Origin: Candidatus Eiseniibacteriota bacterium
GTDB taxonomy: Bacteria > Arandabacterota > Arandabacteria > JAGLYR01
DNA: 11,167 nt
Direction of reading: 5' to 3'
Assembly (NCBI GenBank): GCA_023132135.1
Contig: JAGLYR010000206.1
Coordinates: 1 to 11,167 of the forward strand
Shown here: one piece after another, positions 959 through 11,049 of the stretch
How positions within the stretch are numbered: the stretch's first letter is position 1
Layout: the number at the start of each line of letters is the position of its first letter
Translations under genes and position numbers: made by a program
Notes under the pieces: model-generated
What the model was told of the DNA's origin: nothing
Seen by the model: the letters and a program-made list of their open reading frames with translations, nothing else
Databases searched by the model: none

Positions 959-3118
959 TTGAGACGAGTTCTTGCGACAGGTCTGGTCCTGACAGCAGTG
1001 CTTGCTGCGGCCTGCACAGACGCGCAGGCCTACGTGGGTCCGGGGGCAGGGTTTGCCTTTCTAACGTCTTTCGCTGTCTTGTTCCTTACGATCTTCGTTG
1101 CCATCGGGACCATTCTTATCTGGCCCATCCGATTCCTGTTCCTCCGGGCAAAACGCCGGGGGATGAAGGAAGCCATGGTGGATCGGGTTGTAGTGATCGG
1201 TTTCGACGGAATGGATCCGGCACTCACCCGGCGTTTCATGGATGCCGGGAAGCTGCCGAACCTTGCGAAGCTGGCGGAAGAGGGGACCTTCTGTCCTCTC
1301 AAAACCACGTCGCCGTCGATCTCTCCGGCTGCCTGGTCCTCGTTTCTCACCGGCTCGCATCCGGCCAAACACAACGTGTTCGACTTCCTGACCCCGGACC
1401 GGCGAACCTACTTCCCTGTGCTGTCCTCGGCCGACATCGGGGCGGTCTCCAGGACCTTCAGCCTGGGGAAGTATGCGATTCCCCTGGGCAAGCCCAAGAT
1501 CCGCCTGCTGCGCAGAGGTGTCCCCTTCTGGAAACACCTGGGCGATCGGGGAATTTTCTCATCCATCATCCGGGTTCCCATCACATTTCCCCCGGAGAAG
1601 TTCCGGGGTGTTCTCGTCAGCGGGCTCTGTGTCCCCGACCTCAAGGGCACGCAGGGCACTTTCACCTACTACACGACATCCACCAATGGGAACAAGGAAC
1701 ACACGGGCGGGGTGCGGATCCCGGTGAAGTTCGAGGGCGATACAATTCACGCGGAGATCGAGGGCCCGGTGAATTCGATGCTTCGGGAACCCGTGCCCAT
1801 GACGATTCCCTTTACCGTCGTTGTGGATCGCCCGGGGAAGCGGGCGCGGGTTGAGATAGCGGGTCAGACAATCGAGCTGGGTGAGCGCGAGTACTCTCCG
1901 TGGATCTCCCTGGAATTCAGCGCCGGCTTTGGTATCACGGTGCGCGGAATCGCCAGGTTCTACGTGACCCGGATGGAACCCGACTTCGGACTATACGTGA
2001 CGCCCATTCACATCGATCCCGAGAAACCGGCTCTTCCCATTTCGCACCCCTTCGTCTACGCGGTCTACCTCTCCAAACTGATTGGGCCCTACGCGACGCT
2101 GGGACTGGCGGAAGATACGTGGGCGCTCAACGAGCGGGTGATCGACGAGGGCGCTTTCCTCCAACAGGCCTACTCCTGTCACGAAGAGCGCGAGAAGATG
2201 CTCTTCAACGAGCTGGAAAAGGTTCGAAAAGGACTCGTGGTCTGCGTGTTCGATACCACGGACCGCGTTCAGCACATGATGTTCCGCTACCTCGTACCGG
2301 GGCATCCGGCCAACGAGGGTCAGGACACGGAGGTCCACAAGAATGCCATTGAGGATCTCTATGTCCGAATGGACGAGGTCGTGGGCCGTGTGCGGGAGAA
2401 GATGAAAGAGCGGGAAACCCTGATTGTGATGTCGGACCACGGATTCAAGGCTTTCCGGCGAGGGGTGAACCTCAACTCCTGGTTGGTGCAGAACGGTTAC
2501 ATGGTTCTGAAGGATGGATGCACCGGGGCCGGGGAGTGGTTGCAGGATGTGGACTGGTCGAAGACCAAGGCGTTCGCATTGGGTCTGGGGGGGCTCTACT
2601 TTAACGTCAAGGGCCGCGAAGGGCAGGGAATCGTCCAGCGTGGCGATGAGCTCGAAGCCCTCCGGACGGAACTGCTCGAGAAACTGCAGGGACTCAAGGA
2701 CTCGGACACGGGGGATACGGCAATCCGAAACGTGTACGTTGCAACAGAGCTCTACAAGGGACCATATGTAGACAACGCCCCGGATCTGGTGATCGGCTAT
2801 GCCGATGGATACCGGGTTTCCTGGGACTGCGTCACCGGTATCGTGAACGATGTCGTTTTCGAAGACAACAGGAAAGCGTGGAGCGGAGATCACTGTCTCG
2901 ATCCCGAGATTGTACCGGGCATCTTCTTCTCCAGTCTGAAGATCAATACGAACCAGCCGGCTATCATTGACGTTGCTCCGACGGTGCTGGACCTGTTCGG
3001 GGTTGCGCCGCCGCCCTATATGGACGGCCGTTCGCTGCTGAATGGCTCTCAAGAGCAGTCCGGAGTCCGGGGAAAGGGGCAGCACGTGAGCCGAGTGACG
3101 GGAGAGCAATCTTCATGA
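959..3118 (+). CDS. Membrane-anchored AlkP-superfamily phosphodiesterase (AlkP-1)
   Basis: The predicted product has 719 residues from a TTG at 959, chosen because GAGG lies 10 nt upstream and the N-terminus then reads as a clean membrane-targeting segment. The frame stays open much further upstream, but that part overlaps the vWA gene and the promoter. Residues 4-24 are a signal peptide or first helix, followed by YVGPGAG, a second helix (about 32-55), and a basic stretch RFLFLRAKRR. By the positive-inside rule the catalytic domain would face the cytoplasm. Hallmarks of the type I phosphodiesterase/nucleotide pyrophosphatase branch are D83 (GFDGMD), S122 in SISPAAW at the nucleophile position, D435/H439 (DRVQH), D493/H494 (SDHGF) and H645 (SGDH). 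A beta-rich insert occupies about residues 230-370. The stop overlaps the next start as ATGA. It is a paralog of the next gene. The substrate is unknown; phosphodiester, phosphomonoester or sulfate ester are all possible. Confidence 0.85.
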   Translation: MRRVLATGLVLTAVLAAACTDAQAYVGPGAGFAFLTSFAVLFLTIFVAIGTILIWPIRFLFLRAKRRGMKEAMVDRVVVIGFDGMDPALTRRFMDAGKLPNLAKLAEEGTFCPLKTTSPSISPAAWSSFLTGSHPAKHNVFDFLTPDRRTYFPVLSSADIGAVSRTFSLGKYAIPLGKPKIRLLRRGVPFWKHLGDRGIFSSIIRVPITFPPEKFRGVLVSGLCVPDLKGTQGTFTYYTTSTNGNKEHTGGVRIPVKFEGDTIHAEIEGPVNSMLREPVPMTIPFTVVVDRPGKRARVEIAGQTIELGEREYSPWISLEFSAGFGITVRGIARFYVTRMEPDFGLYVTPIHIDPEKPALPISHPFVYAVYLSKLIGPYATLGLAEDTWALNERVIDEGAFLQQAYSCHEEREKMLFNELEKVRKGLVVCVFDTTDRVQHMMFRYLVPGHPANEGQDTEVHKNAIEDLYVRMDEVVGRVREKMKERETLIVMSDHGFKAFRRGVNLNSWLVQNGYMVLKDGCTGAGEWLQDVDWSKTKAFALGLGGLYFNVKGREGQGIVQRGDELEALRTELLEKLQGLKDSDTGDTAIRNVYVATELYKGPYVDNAPDLVIGYADGYRVSWDCVTGIVNDVVFEDNRKAWSGDHCLDPEIVPGIFFSSLKINTNQPAIIDVAPTVLDLFGVAPPPYMDGRSLLNGSQEQSGVRGKGQHVSRVTGEQSS

Positions 3119-5142
3119 GAATGGGAAGACGAACGTGTTGGATCGCAGGTCTCGCGATTTTCGGTCTGGGATTGCTTGTGCTGGGCCCGTCATCCGGGCC
3201 GGCGAGCGCGGCCGGGGGCAAGAAGGTGCTGGTCCTGGGTTTCGACGGAATGGATCCGAATCTGTCCAAGCGGCTGATGGAGGAGGGGAAGCTGCCCAAC
3301 TTCAAACGCTTGGCCGACGGGGGCGGATTCTCGAAGCTGGGCACGAGTATTCCCCCGCAGAGCCCTGTGGCCTGGTCCAATTTCATCACGGGCCAGAATC
3401 CCGGCGGGCATGGCATTTTCGATTTCGTCGCGCGTACTCCTGAGAACTACCTTCCGTTCTTGTCCACTTCCGTCACCGACAAGAAAGGCACACGTCTCCT
3501 GAGGAGGGGAACGGCCTTCTGGGAAATTCTGGAGGATCACGGTATCTGGAACTCGGTTCTCCGGGTACCCTCCAACTATCCGCCCGTCGATATGAAGGGT
3601 CCGTCTCTGTCCGGAATGGGAACGCCCGACATCCTGGGAACCTACGGAACGTTCTCCTTCTACACGACCGAACCGCAAGTGGGGGGCGATGTGGAGGGGG
3701 GGAAGATCATTGAAGTCAAGATGCGGAACAACATGATCGAATCTTCCCTCGTGGGGCCCAGGATCGGAGAGGGCGGAGACGCAGTCAAGGTGGAAGCACC
3801 TTTCACCGTGTGGGTCGACCCCGAAGAGGCGGTCGCCAAGATCCGCGTGGGGGATGAGGAATTCGTTCTGGCGCAGGGAGAGTGGAGCGACTGGAAACCC
3901 GTCGAATTCAAAGTGATGTCGAAGGGGATGGAAATCCTCCTGTCCCTGGTGGGACAGACTTCCTCGCTCCACTCGATTGCGAGGTTCTACCTCAAGGAAG
4001 CACACCCCGAGTTCAATCTGTATGTTTCGCCGCTCAACTTCGACCCGTTCTATTCTCCGCCCGGGACCAGCATCTGTACACCGGATGGCTATTCCAAGAA
4101 ACTGGCCAAGGAGATCGGGTACTTCTACACCCAGGGAATGGCCGAGGACACATGGGCTCTTAACGAGGGAAGGCTCAACGAGAAGGAATTCCTGCAGCAG
4201 AGCGAATTCGTGCTTCAGGAACGGATCAGGATGTTCAGGTGTGAGCTGGAGCACTTCCTCCAGAAGGAGCAGGCGCTCTACTTCTGCTACTTCTCAACGA
4301 CCGATCCGCTGTCCCACATGTTCGGGCGATTCATGGACCCGGGGCACCCGTTGAACTACCCGGATGAGTTCGAGAAATATGGGGATGTAATCCCCCACTA
4401 CTACACCCGGATGGACTCCGTGCTGGGCTATGCTCTGGACCGGGTGGGGGAGGGGACCACGGTGATGGTGCTCTCCGACCACGGATTCACCTCCTACCGG
4501 CGTTCATTCCACCTGAACACATGGTTGTACGAGAACGGCTACATCCAACTGAGGGACAAGCGGAAGAAGAGCAGCGGCGAGTTCTTCGTGAACGTGGACT
4601 GGCGCAAGACCAGGGCGTATGCTCTCGGGATCAACTGCCTGTACCTGAACCTCAAGGGGCGCGAGGGCTATGGCATTGTGAAACCGGGATATGAAGCCGA
4701 TCAGCTGCTGGCGGAGCTGGTTGAGAAACTCGAGGCCATCACGGATCCTAAGACGGGAGAGCAGGCGATTCTCAGGGTCTATCGCTCAAGCGAAGTTTAC
4801 TCCGGGGATGCCATAGAATCAGCCCCGGATCTGGTGGTCGGCTACAACGCGGGGTACCGCGCTTCGTGGGAAACAGCTCTGGGCAAGATCCCCAATCCCG
4901 AAAAGGGTTTCTTCGGGGACAATCTGAAAAAGTGGAGCGGGGATCACTGCATGGCGGCGGAGATCATTCCGGGGGTGCTTTTCACGAACAAGCCGCTCCG
5001 GATTCCTGATCCGTCCCTGGTGGATCTTGCGCCCACGATCCTGAATGAGTTCGGGATCGAGAAGACGCCGGAGATGATCGGGCGGAACGTATTTGCGGAA
5101 GGGCCGGAAACAGGAAGCAGGGTGGAGAGTGTGATGAGGTGA
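3115..5142 (+). CDS. Exported AlkP-superfamily phosphodiesterase (AlkP-2)
   Basis: The predicted product has 675 residues from an ATG that overlaps the previous stop by 4 bp (ATGA), which suggests translational coupling. Residues 1-32 form a Sec signal peptide with basic residues RR at 5-6, a hydrophobic core, and ASA before the likely cleavage site, so the enzyme should act outside the cytoplasmic membrane. The mature part starts directly with the AlkP fold: D44 (GFDGMD), S83 in QSPVAW at the nucleophile position, D397/H401 (DPLSH), D455/H456 (SDHGF), and D610/H611 (SGDH). It shares with AlkP-1 the beta-rich insert between the first and second metal-ligand groups (about 190-320), which the two AlkP genes of the leftward operon lack. 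All expected metal ligands are present, so it should be active. The two genes are an old tandem duplication whose products now differ in location. The substrate cannot be read from the sequence. Confidence 0.9.
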   Translation: MRMGRRTCWIAGLAIFGLGLLVLGPSSGPASAAGGKKVLVLGFDGMDPNLSKRLMEEGKLPNFKRLADGGGFSKLGTSIPPQSPVAWSNFITGQNPGGHGIFDFVARTPENYLPFLSTSVTDKKGTRLLRRGTAFWEILEDHGIWNSVLRVPSNYPPVDMKGPSLSGMGTPDILGTYGTFSFYTTEPQVGGDVEGGKIIEVKMRNNMIESSLVGPRIGEGGDAVKVEAPFTVWVDPEEAVAKIRVGDEEFVLAQGEWSDWKPVEFKVMSKGMEILLSLVGQTSSLHSIARFYLKEAHPEFNLYVSPLNFDPFYSPPGTSICTPDGYSKKLAKEIGYFYTQGMAEDTWALNEGRLNEKEFLQQSEFVLQERIRMFRCELEHFLQKEQALYFCYFSTTDPLSHMFGRFMDPGHPLNYPDEFEKYGDVIPHYYTRMDSVLGYALDRVGEGTTVMVLSDHGFTSYRRSFHLNTWLYENGYIQLRDKRKKSSGEFFVNVDWRKTRAYALGINCLYLNLKGREGYGIVKPGYEADQLLAELVEKLEAITDPKTGEQAILRVYRSSEVYSGDAIESAPDLVVGYNAGYRASWETALGKIPNPEKGFFGDNLKKWSGDHCMAAEIIPGVLFTNKPLRIPDPSLVDLAPTILNEFGIEKTPEMIGRNVFAEGPETGSRVESVMR

Positions 5143-5154
5143 AGGAGAGGCGTT

Positions 5155-5349
5155 ATGTTCGGGGGAAAGAAGGTCAAGATCGAGAAGGAGTTGTACAGCA
5201 AGGCCGAGATGTATGCCAAGGTCGCAGGCTACACTTCGGTAGAGGAATTCATCAATCACATTGTGGAGAAGGAACTGGCTACCTTCGGCGAAGGTGATTC
5301 CGAAGAGGAAATCAAGAAAAAACTCCAGGGACTCGGGTATATTTCATAG
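5155..5349 (+). CDS. Small ribbon-helix-helix-like protein with LGY tail (RHH-1)
   Basis: The predicted product has 64 residues. The ATG is preceded by AGGAG at good spacing and starts 12 nt after the AlkP-2 stop. Residues 5-41 fit a ribbon-helix-helix (MetJ/Arc type) pattern: a short strand (KKVKIEKEL), a helix (YSKAEMYAKVAG), a turn with YTSVEEF, and a second helix to about residue 41. Such proteins usually dimerise and bind DNA through the strand. The rest (43-64) is an acidic linker and a short helix SEEEIKKKLQGLGYIS. The same ending occurs on APS kinase and on the ribbon-helix-helix-like protein of the leftward operon. It may be an operon regulator or a non-DNA-binding adaptor that docks through its tail. 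No toxin gene sits next to it, so an antitoxin role is unlikely. Confidence 0.8.
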   Translation: MFGGKKVKIEKELYSKAEMYAKVAGYTSVEEFINHIVEKELATFGEGDSEEEIKKKLQGLGYIS

Positions 5350-5358
5350 GTGAGGTCC

Positions 5359-6174
5359 ATGTTCGCATTCAACAATGCGCTGGCGAGAATGTTTGACCTG
5401 TTCTACACGCCGTTCCGGTCGTTTCATCCTGTCTGGGGCCTGCTGGCCATGTCTGCCGTCACCGGTCTCATTCTGCTGTTCATCTGGAAGTACACCACCA
5501 ACCAGAAGCAGATGAAGGCGGTGAAGGACCGCATCAAGATGCATTTCATCGAGATCCGGCTGTACCAGGATGACATGGGGATCATCTGGAAAACCCAGGC
5601 GCGGATTCTCAAGCAGAACCTCCGCTACATCGTGCTGGTACTGGTCCCGGCCCTCGTGATTATTGTTCCGGTTGTGTTCATCCTTGTGGATATGGATCAC
5701 CGGTTTGGCCGCGAGGCTCTCGAACCGGGCGAGTCTGCCCTGGTGAAGGTGAAGTTCGCCGGGCGGGGAGGATTGCCGGAGGTCACGATCCGGGCGCCGG
5801 AGGGTGTAGTGGTAGAGACGCCCCGGCTCCGGATTCCGGTGGAGCGAGAGGTAGACTGGCGCATCCGGGCCGAACGTGAGGGAGATTTCGATCTGGCCTT
5901 TGTAGTCGACGGAGACACGTACACCAAGAGACTGACGGTCGGTAACTCAACCAGGCGCTTCTCGTTCATCAAAGGGCAAGCCACGGTTGAGGAAGCCTTC
6001 TTCAATCCGGGGGAGGATCCTCTGCCCAAGGGGTCGCTGATCGAGTCCATCGAAATTACCTACCCGGAGATGCGCTTCCGCTTTGAGAGCTGGGTAGGTC
6101 ACTGGTTGACGCTCTTCTGCGTGTTCTCGCTGGCGGTGGGGTTCGGTTTGAAGCCGGTATTCAATGTGGAATAG
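5359..6174 (+). CDS. Three-helix membrane protein, possible Oxa1/YidC/EMC3 superfamily relative
   Basis: The predicted product has 271 residues from the ATG at 5359, which has AGGTGAGG just upstream; a GTG at 5350 would add three residues but lacks a clear ribosome site. Residues 24-43 are a first membrane helix. Residues 44-88 are a charged, probably helical, cytoplasmic stretch (KYTTNQKQMKAVKDRIK). A second helix spans 90-110. Residues 112-240 form a beta-rich soluble domain with an Ig-like feel. A third helix spans about 245-262. One helix, a basic helical hairpin with an NQK..MK pattern, then another helix recalls the DUF106/EMC3 group of membrane insertases, but the large soluble insert before the last helix is unusual. 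The assignment is a hypothesis from pattern only. It is the last gene of the rightward operon, so it may help insert or anchor the AlkP proteins. Confidence 0.75.
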   Translation: MFAFNNALARMFDLFYTPFRSFHPVWGLLAMSAVTGLILLFIWKYTTNQKQMKAVKDRIKMHFIEIRLYQDDMGIIWKTQARILKQNLRYIVLVLVPALVIIVPVVFILVDMDHRFGREALEPGESALVKVKFAGRGGLPEVTIRAPEGVVVETPRLRIPVEREVDWRIRAEREGDFDLAFVVDGDTYTKRLTVGNSTRRFSFIKGQATVEEAFFNPGEDPLPKGSLIESIEITYPEMRFRFESWVGHWLTLFCVFSLAVGFGLKPVFNVE

Positions 6175-6178
6175 CGGC
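6153..6178. terminator. Hairpin between convergent operons, candidate bidirectional terminator
   Basis: GCCG-g-TATTC (6153-6162) pairs with GAATA-g-CGGC (6169-6178) around an AATGTG loop, giving 9 pairs with one internal mismatch. It spans the stop codon of the rightward operon and the last base of the leftward stop. Neither side has a T-run, so it is not a textbook intrinsic terminator. It may limit read-through or protect the 3' ends. Confidence 0.45.
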
Positions 6179-7497
6179 TACCCCCTCAACACTTTCCTCT
6201 CCAGAATCCCTGCCAGGTCCGTGATGTGGAGATCCTCCGCCGTGGGCTCCTTGCTCCAGAAAAACGCATCATCCCACGTGTGCATTCCCTCGAGCACCGT
6301 ACGCTTGAAGATGTTTTTCTCCTTGGGCGAGCCCTTGAGATCGAAGCCGTAGTTGGAGACCGGCACTAGGTCCGGTGCAGCATCAAGAGCCGGGCCGGAG
6401 TAGATCTCGTCCCGTTCGAAAACCTTGTAGATTACCTTCTCGCCCTCGTACTCCAACGCCTCGAGCCCGGCCTTGATCTCGGCCTTGACAGAGGGAACGT
6501 CCGCGTCTTCCACCTTGCCCTTGGGAAACTTGCCCTTGCGATGGATGTAGATCCGTGACGGATCCAGGGCAAATGCCTTTGCCGAGGGAGCGATGTCATC
6601 CAGTGACTCGGGTGGATCCTTCTCGAAGGCCAGGAGTCCGGCCTGGACGAGCCATGGATTGACATAGGTTTCCTGCTTGATGGCCGTGAAGCCGTGATCC
6701 GAGAGCAGGAAGAACCCGTCACCCTCGTCCTTGAAGGGAGAGATCTCCATGTACGCGTCAAAGATCTTGCCCACGAAGGCGTCTACCTTGCGATAGTAAT
6801 TGATAACCCTCTCGTGGAAGGGGTGCGATTCATCGTCGATCGCGGTCCAGAGGTAGTGCTGGATGCGGTCGGTCCCCGTGATCACCAGCTCGAAGAAATC
6901 CCAGTCCACTTCCCCCCAGAAGTGCTCGAAAGCCTGGAGTCGACTCACGAGCGTCTTGTCCAGATCCTTCATCAGGAACTCGTGATCGTCCCGGCTCTTC
7001 ATGGTATCGATGTCAATCTGGTAGTTCATCTTCTGGAGCAGGGGCCGGAGAGTCGGGGGATGGATGGCGCGTGCCAACTCGATGGCCACGAACCCGGAGA
7101 CCATGACCCCGGGAATGGGCCGGGCGGGGTATGTGGACGGCTGGTTGAGGACCACCGACTGCTTCTTCTTCTGCCCGAGGCGGTCCCAGAGCGTTGAGGT
7201 TTTGAGATCCCGGAAGCACGGAAAGGTCAAGCGGTAGCTGGAGGGTTTGAGATCCGTGAACCCGTAGATGCCGTGAGTCCCCGGGTTGGTCCCCGTCATG
7301 AAGGAGGGCCAGCTGACGGCCGAGATTTCCGGCAGCGTGACCTTCATCTTCCTGAGAGTTCCCAGCTCGGCGATCTTCGCTATCCTGGGGGTGATTCCAT
7401 CGCGGCAGAACCGCTCCAGCATGGAGTGGGGGACGCCGTCCAGTCCGACGACGCAGACGCGCGGTTTTTTCTTCTTTTTCAGGAAGCCAAATGCCAC
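6178..7497 (-). CDS. Cytoplasmic AlkP-superfamily phosphodiesterase (AlkP-3)
   Basis: The predicted product has 439 residues from a GTG at 7497-7495, with AGGAGG 8 nt upstream. There is no signal peptide; the N-terminus is MAFGFLKKKKKPR, with a run of five lysines before the first strand. AlkP signatures are D20 (GLDGV), S59 in EISAVSW at the nucleophile position, TGTNPGTHGIYGF after it, D210/H214 (DRIQH), D267/H268 (SDHGF) and H406 (GMHTW). It is shorter than AlkP-1 and AlkP-2 because it lacks their beta-rich insert. It is the last gene of the leftward operon, 80 bp after cysC, and ends 3 bp from the opposing stop. It belongs to the poorly characterised AlkP group related to phosphodiesterases and nucleotide pyrophosphatases. 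Its place in a PAPS-synthesis operon suggests, but does not prove, a substrate linked to sulfonucleotides. Confidence 0.88.
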   Translation of the reverse strand: MAFGFLKKKKKPRVCVVGLDGVPHSMLERFCRDGITPRIAKIAELGTLRKMKVTLPEISAVSWPSFMTGTNPGTHGIYGFTDLKPSSYRLTFPCFRDLKTSTLWDRLGQKKKQSVVLNQPSTYPARPIPGVMVSGFVAIELARAIHPPTLRPLLQKMNYQIDIDTMKSRDDHEFLMKDLDKTLVSRLQAFEHFWGEVDWDFFELVITGTDRIQHYLWTAIDDESHPFHERVINYYRKVDAFVGKIFDAYMEISPFKDEGDGFFLLSDHGFTAIKQETYVNPWLVQAGLLAFEKDPPESLDDIAPSAKAFALDPSRIYIHRKGKFPKGKVEDADVPSVKAEIKAGLEALEYEGEKVIYKVFERDEIYSGPALDAAPDLVPVSNYGFDLKGSPKEKNIFKRTVLEGMHTWDDAFFWSKEPTAEDLHITDLAGILERKVLRG

Positions 7498-7577: not shown

Positions 7578-8180
7578 CTAAATGTAACCCAGGTCTTTGA
7601 GCCGCTGCTTGATCTTCTCTTCCTCTTCCTTGGAGTACTCGTCTTCGGCATCTGCCGCGGGGACATTGCCCATGAGTTCCAGCGTACGAATGATCTTGTT
7701 CACGGACTCGTCCACGCCTTCCTTGTCGGTGTCGACCGTGACCTCGGGGTTGTCCGGAGCTTCGTAGGGGTCGTCAACGCCGGTGAAACCCTTGATCTCG
7801 CCGGCCAGGGCCTTCTTGTAGAGACCCTTCACATCTCTCTCGGTCAGGACCTCGATGGGGCACTTGCAGTAGACCTCGACGAAGTTGCTGATGAGCTTCC
7901 GGTTCTCGCCGCGGATTGCCTTGTAGGGCGAGATGGCCGCGGCGATCGCCACGACATCGTTCCGGCTCAGGAGATTGCAGACGAATCCGATCCGGCGGAT
8001 ATTGATGTCCCGATCCTCCTTGGAGAAACCGAGTCCCTTGCTCAGATTGGTGCGGACCACGTCTCCGTCCAGTACCTCAACCTTCATCCCGCGTTCGAGC
8101 AGGATCTCTTCGACCTTGTTGGCCAGGGTCGACTTTCCGGAGCCTGAAAGGCCGGTGAACCACAGGGTGAATCCCTTCAT
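7578..8180 (-). CDS. cysC: Adenylylsulfate (APS) kinase with LGY tail
   Basis: The predicted product has 200 residues. It phosphorylates APS with ATP to give PAPS, the sulfate donor for sulfotransferases and PAPS reductases. Visible signatures are the Walker A loop GLSGSGKS (10-17), the LDGD segment (36-39) followed by VVRTNL, the [10 protein letters not shown] region, SPYKAIR, a P-I-E-V-L-T-E-R-D strand-helix, and the lid sequence [16 protein letters not shown]. The start is the ATG at 8180, with AAGGAGGA upstream inside the end of AlkP-4; start and stop overlap as ATGA. A longer frame upstream has no such signal and lies within AlkP-4. The kinase core ends near residue 171. Residues 172-200 are an added acidic linker and helix ending [10 protein letters not shown], the same ending as on both ribbon-helix-helix-like proteins here. 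Confidence 0.96.
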
Positions 8181-9565
8181 TGTTGTCCTCCTTGGAAGAT
8201 CGGGGTTCCAATCATTTCTTCGGGAATGGGAATCCCGAAGTACTGAAGTACTGTTGGAGCAATGTCGTAGAGGGAATACTGATCCTTTGCCGCACCCGGG
8301 GTGGCGGCGGATGAGATCACAATCCCGTTCTGCGCGTGGTTGGCATCGTCTGGTCCGGTGTCGTTCTCGTACAGGTAGATGGAGCCGACGCCCACGGAAC
8401 CGGCCGAGCGCCAATCCAGGTTGCCCAGGTAGACGACGAGATCCGGAGCGATGTTACGGGTTTCGCGGTAAATGTCCTCCGGCCGGAAGGCACGGGTCCC
8501 GATGTTGTTGCCGTTTTCGTCCACGATGGCTTCCAGTTTCTCGATTATCTCTCTGCGGAAGCTCTCGTATTCCGCCTGCGGGACTACCCCTTGGGGCTCG
8601 CGGCCTTCCACGTTGAAGAACACCCTGGCGTAGTAGCCCCCTTCGCCCCAGACCCGGGTCTTTTCCCAGTCGATCATGTCCATCTTCAGGCGGGTCTGTC
8701 CCTTCGGCTCCTCTTTCAGCGTGAGGTAGCCTTCCCGCTGGAGCCATTCGTTAATGCAGATGGCGCCGACCATGGGCTTGGCGCCGTGATCGGAGACCAC
8801 GAGAACCATGGTGTCGTCGTCCACCAGTTTCAGCGTTTCGCCGACCTCGCGATCCACTTCCTTGTAGTAGTCGAGGATCACGTTCTCGTACGGGTTGCCA
8901 GGCTCGTACAGCCGGTGGGTCTTGTCGAAAAAGCGCCAGAAGGCGTGGTGGATCCGGTCAATTCCCATCTCCACCATGATGGCGAAGTCGTAGTCGTCTT
9001 TACCGTAGAAGTGGCGGAAGGCCTTGAAGCGGCGCTCCGTCATTTCGTAGATCTGCTTCAGGAGGTCGTCCTTGTCGTCGGTCCGGAAGTTCTCCACGTC
9101 GATCATGTAGTCGCCGCCCGCTGCCTTGTCGAGTTCGTGCTTGACCTCGTCCGGGTAGGTATACTGGACCCCTTTGTTCGGAGTCAGGAAGCTGGCCACC
9201 ATCACGCCGTTGAGCGGCTTGGGCGGGTAGGTCTGGGGCAGCCCGAAGATGAGTGACTTCATCCGATTGCGCGAGAGGTAGTTCCAGACCGTCTTGGCCT
9301 TCACGTACTTCGCGTTGGCGAAGTAGAGATCTTTGTAGCCGTAGCTGCTTCGATTCCGGAATCCGTAGAACCCCAGCATACCCGGGTCCTGGGACGTCAT
9401 CATGGCCGTCCAGGCCGGGACCGTGATGGGGGGGATGGTCGATTCCAGCCGCGCGCGAAATCCCTTGTTGCCCAGAGCGGTCAGGTTCGGGAGATGTTCA
9501 CTCCATTCATCAAACAGCAATTGGGGTGTGGCGCAATCCAGTCCCAGAATCAGGATCTTTTTCAT
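8177..9565 (-). CDS. Cytoplasmic AlkP-superfamily phosphodiesterase between sat and cysC (AlkP-4)
   Basis: The predicted product has 462 residues from the ATG at 9565. AAGGAG inside the last sat codons is its ribosome site, and only 4 nt separate the sat stop from this start. There is no signal peptide; the first strand [11 protein letters not shown] starts at residue 2. AlkP signatures are D10, T48 in PITVPAW at the nucleophile position (Thr where the other three have Ser), D203/H207 (DRIHH), D259/H260 (SDHGA) and H410 (ANHAQ). The usual GxHGI after the nucleophile helix is GMLGFYGF here, so a His found in AlkP-2 and AlkP-3 is missing; this is not one of the seven core residues. The gene is locked between ATP sulfurylase and APS kinase with coupling on both sides. 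A role tied to APS, PAPS or PAP turnover, or to a sulfated product, is a reasonable guess only. Confidence 0.9.
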
Positions 9566-9569
9566 GGAT

Positions 9570-10724
9570 CTACTTCTCCTTTGGGCGAGCGTGCTTCATC
9601 AGAATCTCAGATACCTCCGGCCGGGTGAACTCCGCCGGAGGAAGCTGGCCTTCGGATAGCATTTTGCGGACCTTGGTTCCGCTCAGGAACACGTGATCGT
9701 CCGACCCGTGCGGGCAGGTCTTGACAGAGGCCATGTTGCCGCACCTTGTGCAGAAGAAAGCGTGGTCGAAGAACAGCGGAGTGATGTCGATTTCCCCGGG
9801 ATCGAATTCCCGGAAGATGTAGTGAGCGTCATAGGTGCCGTAGTAGTCTCCCACGCCGGCGTGATCCCGGCCGACGATCAGATGAGAGCACCCGTAGTTC
9901 TTCCTCACCAGAGCATGGAAGATAGCCTCGCGGGGGCCGGCATAGCGCATGGCGGCCGGGAACACCGAGATAGTCGTCCGGGTCTTGGGGTAGTAGTTGG
10001 CGAGCAGGACCTCGTAACATTCCATCCGCACCTCGCCGGGGATGTCGTCGCTCTTGGTCGCGCCCATAAGAGGGTGAATCAGAAGCCCGTCCACGATCTC
10101 CAGCGCGCACTTCTGGAGGTACTCATGGGCCCGGTGGATGGGATTGCGGGTCTGAAAAGCGGTGATCGTGTTCCAGCCCTTGGCCTTGAACAGCACCCGG
10201 GTTTCCTTGGGATCGAGCCGGTAGTTGAGGAATGTGGTGTGCTTGGGCCGGCTCACCGCGCTGATCCTGCCGCCAAGGTAAGTGTCCCCGATGGATTGGA
10301 GATACTGGGCGCCGGGGTGCGCGTCGTCACGGGTCAGAAGAACCTTCTCGGCCTCCTGGATCTTGTCGATGGGAAACTTGTCCTCCACGTGAAGAACGCC
10401 CAGGACGTTTCCGTCCGGATCCTCAAGAGCGATGTCCTGACCTTCCTTGACCCCGGACGAGTCCCCCTTGCAGGAGAAAACCACGGGAATGGTCCACGGC
10501 AGGCCCTTGTCCAGGCGCATGAGGTCGAGAACGGACTTGTAGTCATCCTGGGTCATGAATCCTTCGAGCGGACTCATGGCCCCGGTGGCGATCATCTCGT
10601 AGTCAGCCAATTCCCGTTCGTTGAGTTTCATCCGTGGCATCTCCGGGATTCTCTTCTCGAGAGTCTCCCGCTCCTTGCCCTCGACGAAACGGTCTACCAG
10701 TTTTCCACCGTGGGGTTTGATCAT
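9570..10724 (-). CDS. sat: ATP sulfurylase (sulfate adenylyltransferase)
   Basis: The predicted product has 384 residues. It makes APS and pyrophosphate from sulfate and ATP. It is the single-chain Sat type, not the CysDN type, and its length is normal for the family. Signatures are QTRNPIHRAH (191-200) for sulfate and ATP binding, VGRDHAGVG (about 284-292), and near the end SGTKVRKML and RPEVSEIL. A CxxC-x8-C cluster (C325, C328, C337) with nearby histidines (H339, H344) resembles the structural zinc site of several bacterial Sat enzymes. The ATG at 10724 has GGGAG 7 nt upstream. It follows the small ribbon-helix-helix-like gene by 61 bp and sits 4 nt before AlkP-4. Sat of this kind serves either assimilation/sulfation or sulfate reduction; pairing with APS kinase favours PAPS formation. 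No aprAB or dsr genes are visible. Confidence 0.97.
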   Translation of the reverse strand: MIKPHGGKLVDRFVEGKERETLEKRIPEMPRMKLNERELADYEMIATGAMSPLEGFMTQDDYKSVLDLMRLDKGLPWTIPVVFSCKGDSSGVKEGQDIALEDPDGNVLGVLHVEDKFPIDKIQEAEKVLLTRDDAHPGAQYLQSIGDTYLGGRISAVSRPKHTTFLNYRLDPKETRVLFKAKGWNTITAFQTRNPIHRAHEYLQKCALEIVDGLLIHPLMGATKSDDIPGEVRMECYEVLLANYYPKTRTTISVFPAAMRYAGPREAIFHALVRKNYGCSHLIVGRDHAGVGDYYGTYDAHYIFREFDPGEIDITPLFFDHAFFCTRCGNMASVKTCPHGSDDHVFLSGTKVRKMLSEGQLPPAEFTRPEVSEILMKHARPKEK

Positions 10725-10785: not shown

Positions 10786-11007
10786 CTAGTCAAGATAGCC
10801 CAGGTTGCGGAGCCTCTGCTTGATGGCCTGGGTCTCTTCCGGCGTGAGCTCATCCTTGTCCGCCGGGATTCCCTTTTCAGATGCAATATCCCGCAAGACG
10901 TAGACGATGAATTCCGTGACCGAACTGAAGCTGGAATCCTGAATCAACGTTTGCAGCTTGCGGTATAGTGGCCTGGGAATCTTGATAGTTACACGTGTTT
11001 CCCTCAT
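10786..11007 (-). CDS. Small ribbon-helix-helix protein with LGY tail (RHH-2)
   Basis: The predicted product has 73 residues. The ATG at 11007 is chosen over an upstream start at 11037 because GGAGGG lies 5 nt before it and the domain begins at once. Residues 3-45 fit the ribbon-helix-helix fold better than RHH-1: a strand with alternating polar residues (TRVTIKIP), a first helix (RPLYRKLQTLIQ), a turn with SSVTEF, and a second helix IVYVLRDIASEK. This is the pattern of dimeric CopG/Arc/MetJ-like DNA-binding proteins. Residues 49-73 are a charged linker and helix TPEETQAIKQRLRNLGYLD, matching the APS kinase and RHH-1 endings. As first gene of the sat-cysC operon, with an inverted repeat at the predicted transcription start, it could be an autoregulator. 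An adaptor role is the alternative. Confidence 0.85.
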   Translation of the reverse strand: MRETRVTIKIPRPLYRKLQTLIQDSSFSSVTEFIVYVLRDIASEKGIPADKDELTPEETQAIKQRLRNLGYLD

Positions 11008-11035
11008 GCCTACCCTCCGGTCATACTCCAGCAAC

Positions 11036-11049
11036 ACTCTAATAAGAGT
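11036..11049. promoter_or_regulatory. Inverted repeat at the predicted transcription start of the sat operon
   Basis: ACTCT (11036-11040) and AGAGT (11045-11049) are exact inverted arms around AATA. They cover the predicted transcription start of the leftward operon (near 11045). The position suits an operator for a dimeric repressor, for example the ribbon-helix-helix-like protein encoded directly downstream. This is inferred from position and symmetry only. Confidence 0.4.

Follow-up and report, generated by a model that had tools for sequence, protein, structure and literature searches.

The window analysed here, an 11,167-nucleotide stretch, corresponds to contig C120 in a draft assembly of 3.4 Mb that was compared with seven relatives of the same class. 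It is organized as two facing operons, as delineated by its open reading frames and family profile matches. The plus-strand operon encodes, in order, AlkP-1 (962–3118), a predicted membrane-tethered AlkP phosphodiesterase whose start is uncertain; AlkP-2 (3115–5142), a predicted exported AlkP phosphodiesterase; RHH-1 (5155–5349), a 64-residue RHH-like small protein with homologs in many phyla; and MemP (5350–6174), a conserved membrane protein. AlkP-2, RHH-1 and MemP share one reading frame and are separated by gaps of only 12 and 0 bases (5140–5155 and 5347–5350). The minus-strand operon comprises RHH-2 (10786–11037, with an internal ATG at 11005–11007 that may be the true start), ATP sulfurylase (9570–10724), AlkP-4 (8177–9565), an APS kinase with a C-terminal extension (7578–8180) and AlkP-3 (6178–7497), the two AlkP phosphodiesterases carrying no signal peptide. 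At positions 1–555, the minus strand holds an incomplete gene whose product combines a von Willebrand A domain (PF25106) with a signal peptide. The initial annotation had proposed that three small proteins of the window end alike, and the translated reading frames bear this out: RHH-1, APS kinase and RHH-2 all terminate in the consensus EE..IK.[KR]L..LGY[IL]. Positions 5281–5346 are the in-frame final 22 codons of RHH-1, the tail proper (5299–5346) reading SEEEIKKKLQGLGYIS before the stop codon; on the minus strand, the APS kinase tail spans 7581–7631 and that of RHH-2, PEETQAIKQRLRNLGYLD followed by a stop, spans 10789–10842.

The tailed proteins belong to different families. AlkP-1 to AlkP-4, all tail-less, match PF01663 well above cut-off (111–148 bits versus 23, E 1e-31 to 8e-43) and are predicted AlkP superfamily phosphodiesterases, which would be expected to hydrolyse phosphate or sulfate esters. 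The ATP sulfurylase was assigned from domain profiles. The APS kinase contains the full domain of canonical CysC-type enzymes (209.5 bits against PF01583, cut-off 21.1; 272.3 against NF002059, cut-off 244) but, unlike these, continues into an approximately 30-residue C-terminal extension ending in LGY, a feature found almost only where AlkP genes flank the kinase. The two small proteins resemble ribbon-helix-helix/CopG proteins (PF01402) in size and pattern, in the two helices predicted for RHH-1 by a single-chain model and in a weak RHH_1 match of RHH-2 (15.3 bits, below the cut-off of 20.5). They differ from that family in that RHH-1 scores above cut-off against no curated family, RHH families included (among 11 homologs, a single one matches RHH_1, at E 0.15), carries the LGY tail and occupies a fixed place after an AlkP gene. 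MemP likewise matches no curated family, and we found no name for the AlkP1-AlkP2-RHH1-MemP block.

Conservation of the RHH-1 tail is complete in the sequences sampled. Every RHH-1 homolog retrieved from a search of 60 genomes ends in LGY, and a scan of a genome collection identified 456 relatives. The best 80 of these 456 loci, which span roughly twelve phyla (Acidobacteriota, Aminicenantes, Eisenbacteria, Gemmatimonadetes, Verrucomicrobia, Omnitrophota, Planctomycetota and others), encode a tailed RHH-1 in 80 of 80 cases. Because the scan patterns themselves included the tail, we repeated the search across 145 genomes with a core-only query, namely the 44-residue RHH-1 core from which the tail had been removed; all 20 true homologs again end in LGY, at core identities down to 49%, and the one match lacking LGY is an unrelated 211-residue open reading frame (E 2e-4). 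Across 68 distinct RHH-1 sequences, positions −8, −6, −5, −4 and −3 are L, G, L, G and Y without variation. The surrounding AlkP1-AlkP2-RHH1-MemP genes (962–6174 in the window; loci L067–L146) form a conserved block in many phyla, which AlkP3, APS kinase, AlkP4, ATP sulfurylase and RHH-2 adjoin in some species.

Within this cluster the tail is distributed in a strictly complementary manner: the neighbours carry it and the cluster's own AlkP enzymes do not. In the related loci RHH-2 is tailed in 7 of 7 cases and APS kinase in 9 of 11, next to the invariably tailed RHH-1, whereas none of the AlkP-1 (0/67), AlkP-2 (0/75), AlkP-3 (0/15), AlkP-4 (0/5), MemP (0/76) or ATP sulfurylase (0/8) homologs is, which upholds the earlier observation that the four AlkP enzymes of the window lack the tail themselves. 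Two AlkP-2 proteins do end in GY, through their core sequence rather than the motif, and two separate AlkP paralogs in locus L076 carry the motif. The N-terminus of AlkP-2 from locus L078 features LSDEERAALASLGYV after its lipobox, so that the motif can also precede the catalytic domain.

The APS kinases allow tail and neighbourhood to be compared directly. Over the window, genomes and loci combined, the tail is present in 21 of 22 AlkP-flanked kinases versus 1 of 12 elsewhere (Fisher P ~5e-7, a value that ignores shared ancestry among the class genomes), in agreement with the suggestion that tagged genes cluster with AlkP genes. The exceptions are an AlkP-flanked, untailed kinase in genome G021 and a tailed one located elsewhere in G025; in loci L072 and L101, RHH-1 is present, yet the APS kinase, whose gene does not adjoin AlkP3/AlkP4, is untailed. 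The kinase tail thus tracks AlkP adjacency and not ancestry, again with a P value that is not phylogeny-corrected.

Charged C-terminal helices are common, and such ordinary protein ends could resemble one another by accident; a PyrF-like protein without a known AlkP link (C78) ends in LGYL, so chance endings of this kind do occur. Residue-order controls, however, refute this explanation. Among 1088 open reading frames from 80 homologous loci, LGY lies at most five residues from the terminus in 57, and other orders of the same three residues were absent at these ends, barring 11 cases of GYL that derive from LGYL endings. After exclusion of both the RHH and the APS kinase families, LGY still occurs nine times within the last eight residues (0.95 expected), compared with 0–2 occurrences of other orders (0.7–2.0 expected). 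The bare DNA pattern shows no genome-wide enrichment (59 matches versus 85 for the reversed control), for which reason protein ends were read instead; the signal appears where real proteins end and does not stem from DNA composition. One in-frame pattern match, on contig C57, falls in no open reading frame of at least 30 amino acids. Given the permutation controls, the conservation and the restriction to particular families, we reject a chance origin of the tail as wholly improbable.

The native context of the motif is the AlkP superfamily itself, whose hydrolases are numerous in this genome (14 sulfatases and a dozen phosphodiesterases). The statement in the initial annotation that LGY endings are frequent among AlkP-superfamily sulfatases proved accurate: L..LGY is present in all 14 PF00884 sulfatases of the genome, C-terminal in 11 and internal in three, where the catalytic domain joins a TPR-like C-terminal region. 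Seven AlkP phosphodiesterases of the genome carry it as well, five of them (C28, C29, C54, C113 and C214) ending in the motif or a close variant and two (both at C279) featuring it internally, before a TPR-like region; an AlkP protein encoded on C235 has no tail. Among 12 sulfatases of related loci that are approximately 30% identical, the two leucines are invariant, Gly-Tyr is retained in at least 90% and a variable-length linker precedes the motif, which is conserved like active-site positions.

A profile built on 26 tails retrieved 16–30 hits in each of the eight class genomes and mostly 0–2 in unrelated genomes, with five in G008 and G021; in further genomes it returned 6, 2, 9, 8 and 1 hits for RHH-1 carriers and 0–1 for others, except for G042 with eight, those examined being sulfatases and AlkPs. 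Neither in G042 nor in G021 did we detect RHH-1, although tailed proteins are present. Among the hits that we fetched, all real proteins that were classified fell into five groups: sulfatases, AlkP phosphodiesterases, APS kinases, RHH-1 and RHH-2. The AlkP-associated form of the motif proposed here, a charged helix followed by L..LGY[ILV] and carried by AlkP proteins or the products of adjacent genes, was recovered. The refuting outcome set out in the initial annotation, mostly random C-termini with no clustering, is clearly not what the profile yields. A further carrier is CysA (PF17850 above cut-off; L062:5383–6507, contig C54 of the same genome), the ATPase subunit of a sulfate ABC transporter that is encoded in full; this CysA ends in AIRAQLQSLGYIE, and 2.4 kb downstream of its gene lies a tailed AlkP gene. 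No CysA this close to it was found in the relatives that we searched. An arylsulfotransferase-like protein (PF05935; L130:11200–13980) contains an internal AELARLKALGYV. Taken together, this is a conserved motif at home in AlkP-superfamily enzymes, and tail-less AlkP enzymes have unrelated proteins that carry it encoded next to them.

The internal copies bear on how the motif could be read. Five TPR-fused sulfatases and AlkPs (C297, C308, C343 and C279 twice) feature it at the domain boundary, internal copies recur in related genomes (L253, L265, L282, L286 and L289), and in other sulfatases it lies 22–35 residues from the end. The initial notion of a strictly C-terminal tag does not survive these cases, and a tag read through its terminal carboxylate was rejected on the same grounds. 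In the C297, C308, C343 and C279 proteins, which have no terminal tail, the TPR-like C-terminal region directly follows the motif. A C-terminal signal that governs stability or proteolysis would suit the majority of carriers, where one to three variable residues follow a terminal LGY; the copies placed internally or 22–35 residues upstream, together with the occurrence of tails in two cellular compartments, make it a very remote explanation. Alternatively, the constant position just past the sulfatase catalytic domain could betray a structural cap, inherited in AlkP and sulfatase proteins and copied to their neighbours by gene-end exchange without any present interaction. We regard this as improbable, given that the invariance of the tail on a 64-residue RHH-1 across phyla and its absence from APS kinases outside AlkP loci both point to selection maintaining a function in that context.

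The predicted localization of the carriers further constrains any partner. AlkP-1 homologs feature a signal-like segment, a YVGPGAG loop and a membrane segment followed by an Arg/Lys-rich stretch, and the positive-inside rule would place their catalytic domain in the cytoplasm. AlkP-2 homologs carry Sec, Tat or lipoprotein signals, and the N-termini of the tailed sulfatases indicate export or membrane anchoring; no signal is found on RHH-1, RHH-2, APS kinase, CysA or some of the tailed AlkPs. A direct RHH-1–AlkP-2 contact was considered and dropped, since cytoplasmic RHH-1 could not reach the mature domain of an exported AlkP-2. The presence of tails on both exported sulfatases and cytoplasmic proteins makes the proposal of one common partner hard to hold and a single receptor for all unlikely, unless that receptor is the AlkP domain itself, in which case tails in both compartments would be explained. 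The same consideration weakens a role for a third-party receptor such as MemP or a TPR protein: the MemP gene comes next after that of RHH-1 at almost every locus, peptide binding is a known role of TPR domains and TPR-like regions immediately follow the motif in some AlkPs, but one receptor cannot serve both compartments, and G042 and G021 contain tailed proteins with no RHH-1 detected. On balance, we find such a receptor rather improbable.

In the AlphaFold model of a tailed sulfatase, a disordered linker with pLDDT below 50 (residues 411–415) precedes a tail helix at approximately 79 (420–429), a recovery that speaks for docking; the last residues, among them the final part of the motif, reach approximately 56, which speaks against it. 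An interaction in trans was modelled in AlphaFold as a single read-through chain of AlkP-1 and RHH-1, which lie in the same frame in locus L080: the AlkP-1 fold is confident, the RHH helices reach pLDDT ~75–78, the tail helix ~69 and the linker ~41. The complex prediction called for by the initial annotation, covered here by this AlkP1-RHH1 read-through chain only, gave no confident sign of the docking it anticipated: neither this model nor that of the sulfatase places the tail with confidence, and the RHH-1 tail scores no better than the RHH core. Most solved sulfatase structures stop matching before the tail, and none shows its place.

We propose, tentatively and with somewhat less than even confidence, that the tail serves as a docking helix linked to the AlkP superfamily. 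Most members would carry it in cis on a linker, whereas tail-less enzymes would receive it in trans from their neighbours. The element is a short amphipathic helix (E..I+.+L..) closing in Leu-Gly-Tyr-aliphatic. The sulfatases and AlkP phosphodiesterases of these bacteria mostly have it on a flexible linker just past the catalytic domain, whether at the very end of the protein or ahead of a TPR-like region, and there it most likely packs on an AlkP domain, its own or an adjacent one. In the window's conserved cluster, the AlkP enzymes may have lost the motif or never had it, and RHH-1, RHH-2 and APS kinase would bring it to them in trans, such that a kinase and two small RHH-like proteins could be held on the tail-less, putatively cytoplasmic AlkP-1, AlkP-3 and AlkP-4. 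What the sequences show is the presence and conservation of the motif, its confinement to AlkP proteins and their neighbours, and its complementary distribution; binding, the AlkP domain as receptor and the exchange between cis and trans we infer. Docking in general strikes us as somewhat more likely than not, and the specific cis/trans model with an AlkP pocket as a weaker proposition that is rather more doubtful than not. The tails could instead bundle with one another as homo- or hetero-oligomers, so that RHH-1, RHH-2, APS kinase and the tailed AlkPs bind each other and not an AlkP pocket. One helix and LGY pattern is common to all tails, no receptor would be needed in either compartment, and the dimeric state of RHH proteins and of APS kinases would lend such an assembly multivalency; yet it would exclude the tail-less AlkP-1 to AlkP-4 of the same operons and does not require the internal motif of the TPR-fused proteins, and we consider it unlikely.

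Short C-terminal docking peptides are known from encapsulin cargo proteins and from the ligands of TPR carboxylate clamps. By description, the LGY tail shares with these a short conserved end, placed on unrelated folds and encoded beside a putative partner; it differs in that it also occurs internally, so that a free carboxylate is not required. In the AlkP superfamily proteins of this genome (PF01663 and PF00884) the motif is native, placed just past the catalytic domain, but AlkP-1 to AlkP-4 are without it and its carriers RHH-1, RHH-2 and APS kinase have unrelated folds. We found no published description of the tail in the openly licensed literature.

A motif that marks AlkP enzymes and their partners provides a sequence handle for finding such partners and makes the function of the widespread AlkP1-AlkP2-RHH1-MemP cluster directly testable. 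It also suggests a single complex in which AlkP enzymes may work together with APS kinase and the two small proteins. More broadly, and as a possibility that we hold to be on the unlikely side, it could represent a portable AlkP-superfamily docking motif that acts in cis or in trans: enzymes without a motif of their own would obtain it from small RHH-like adaptors and from APS kinase, forming a sulfate-activation/AlkP assembly across many bacterial phyla.
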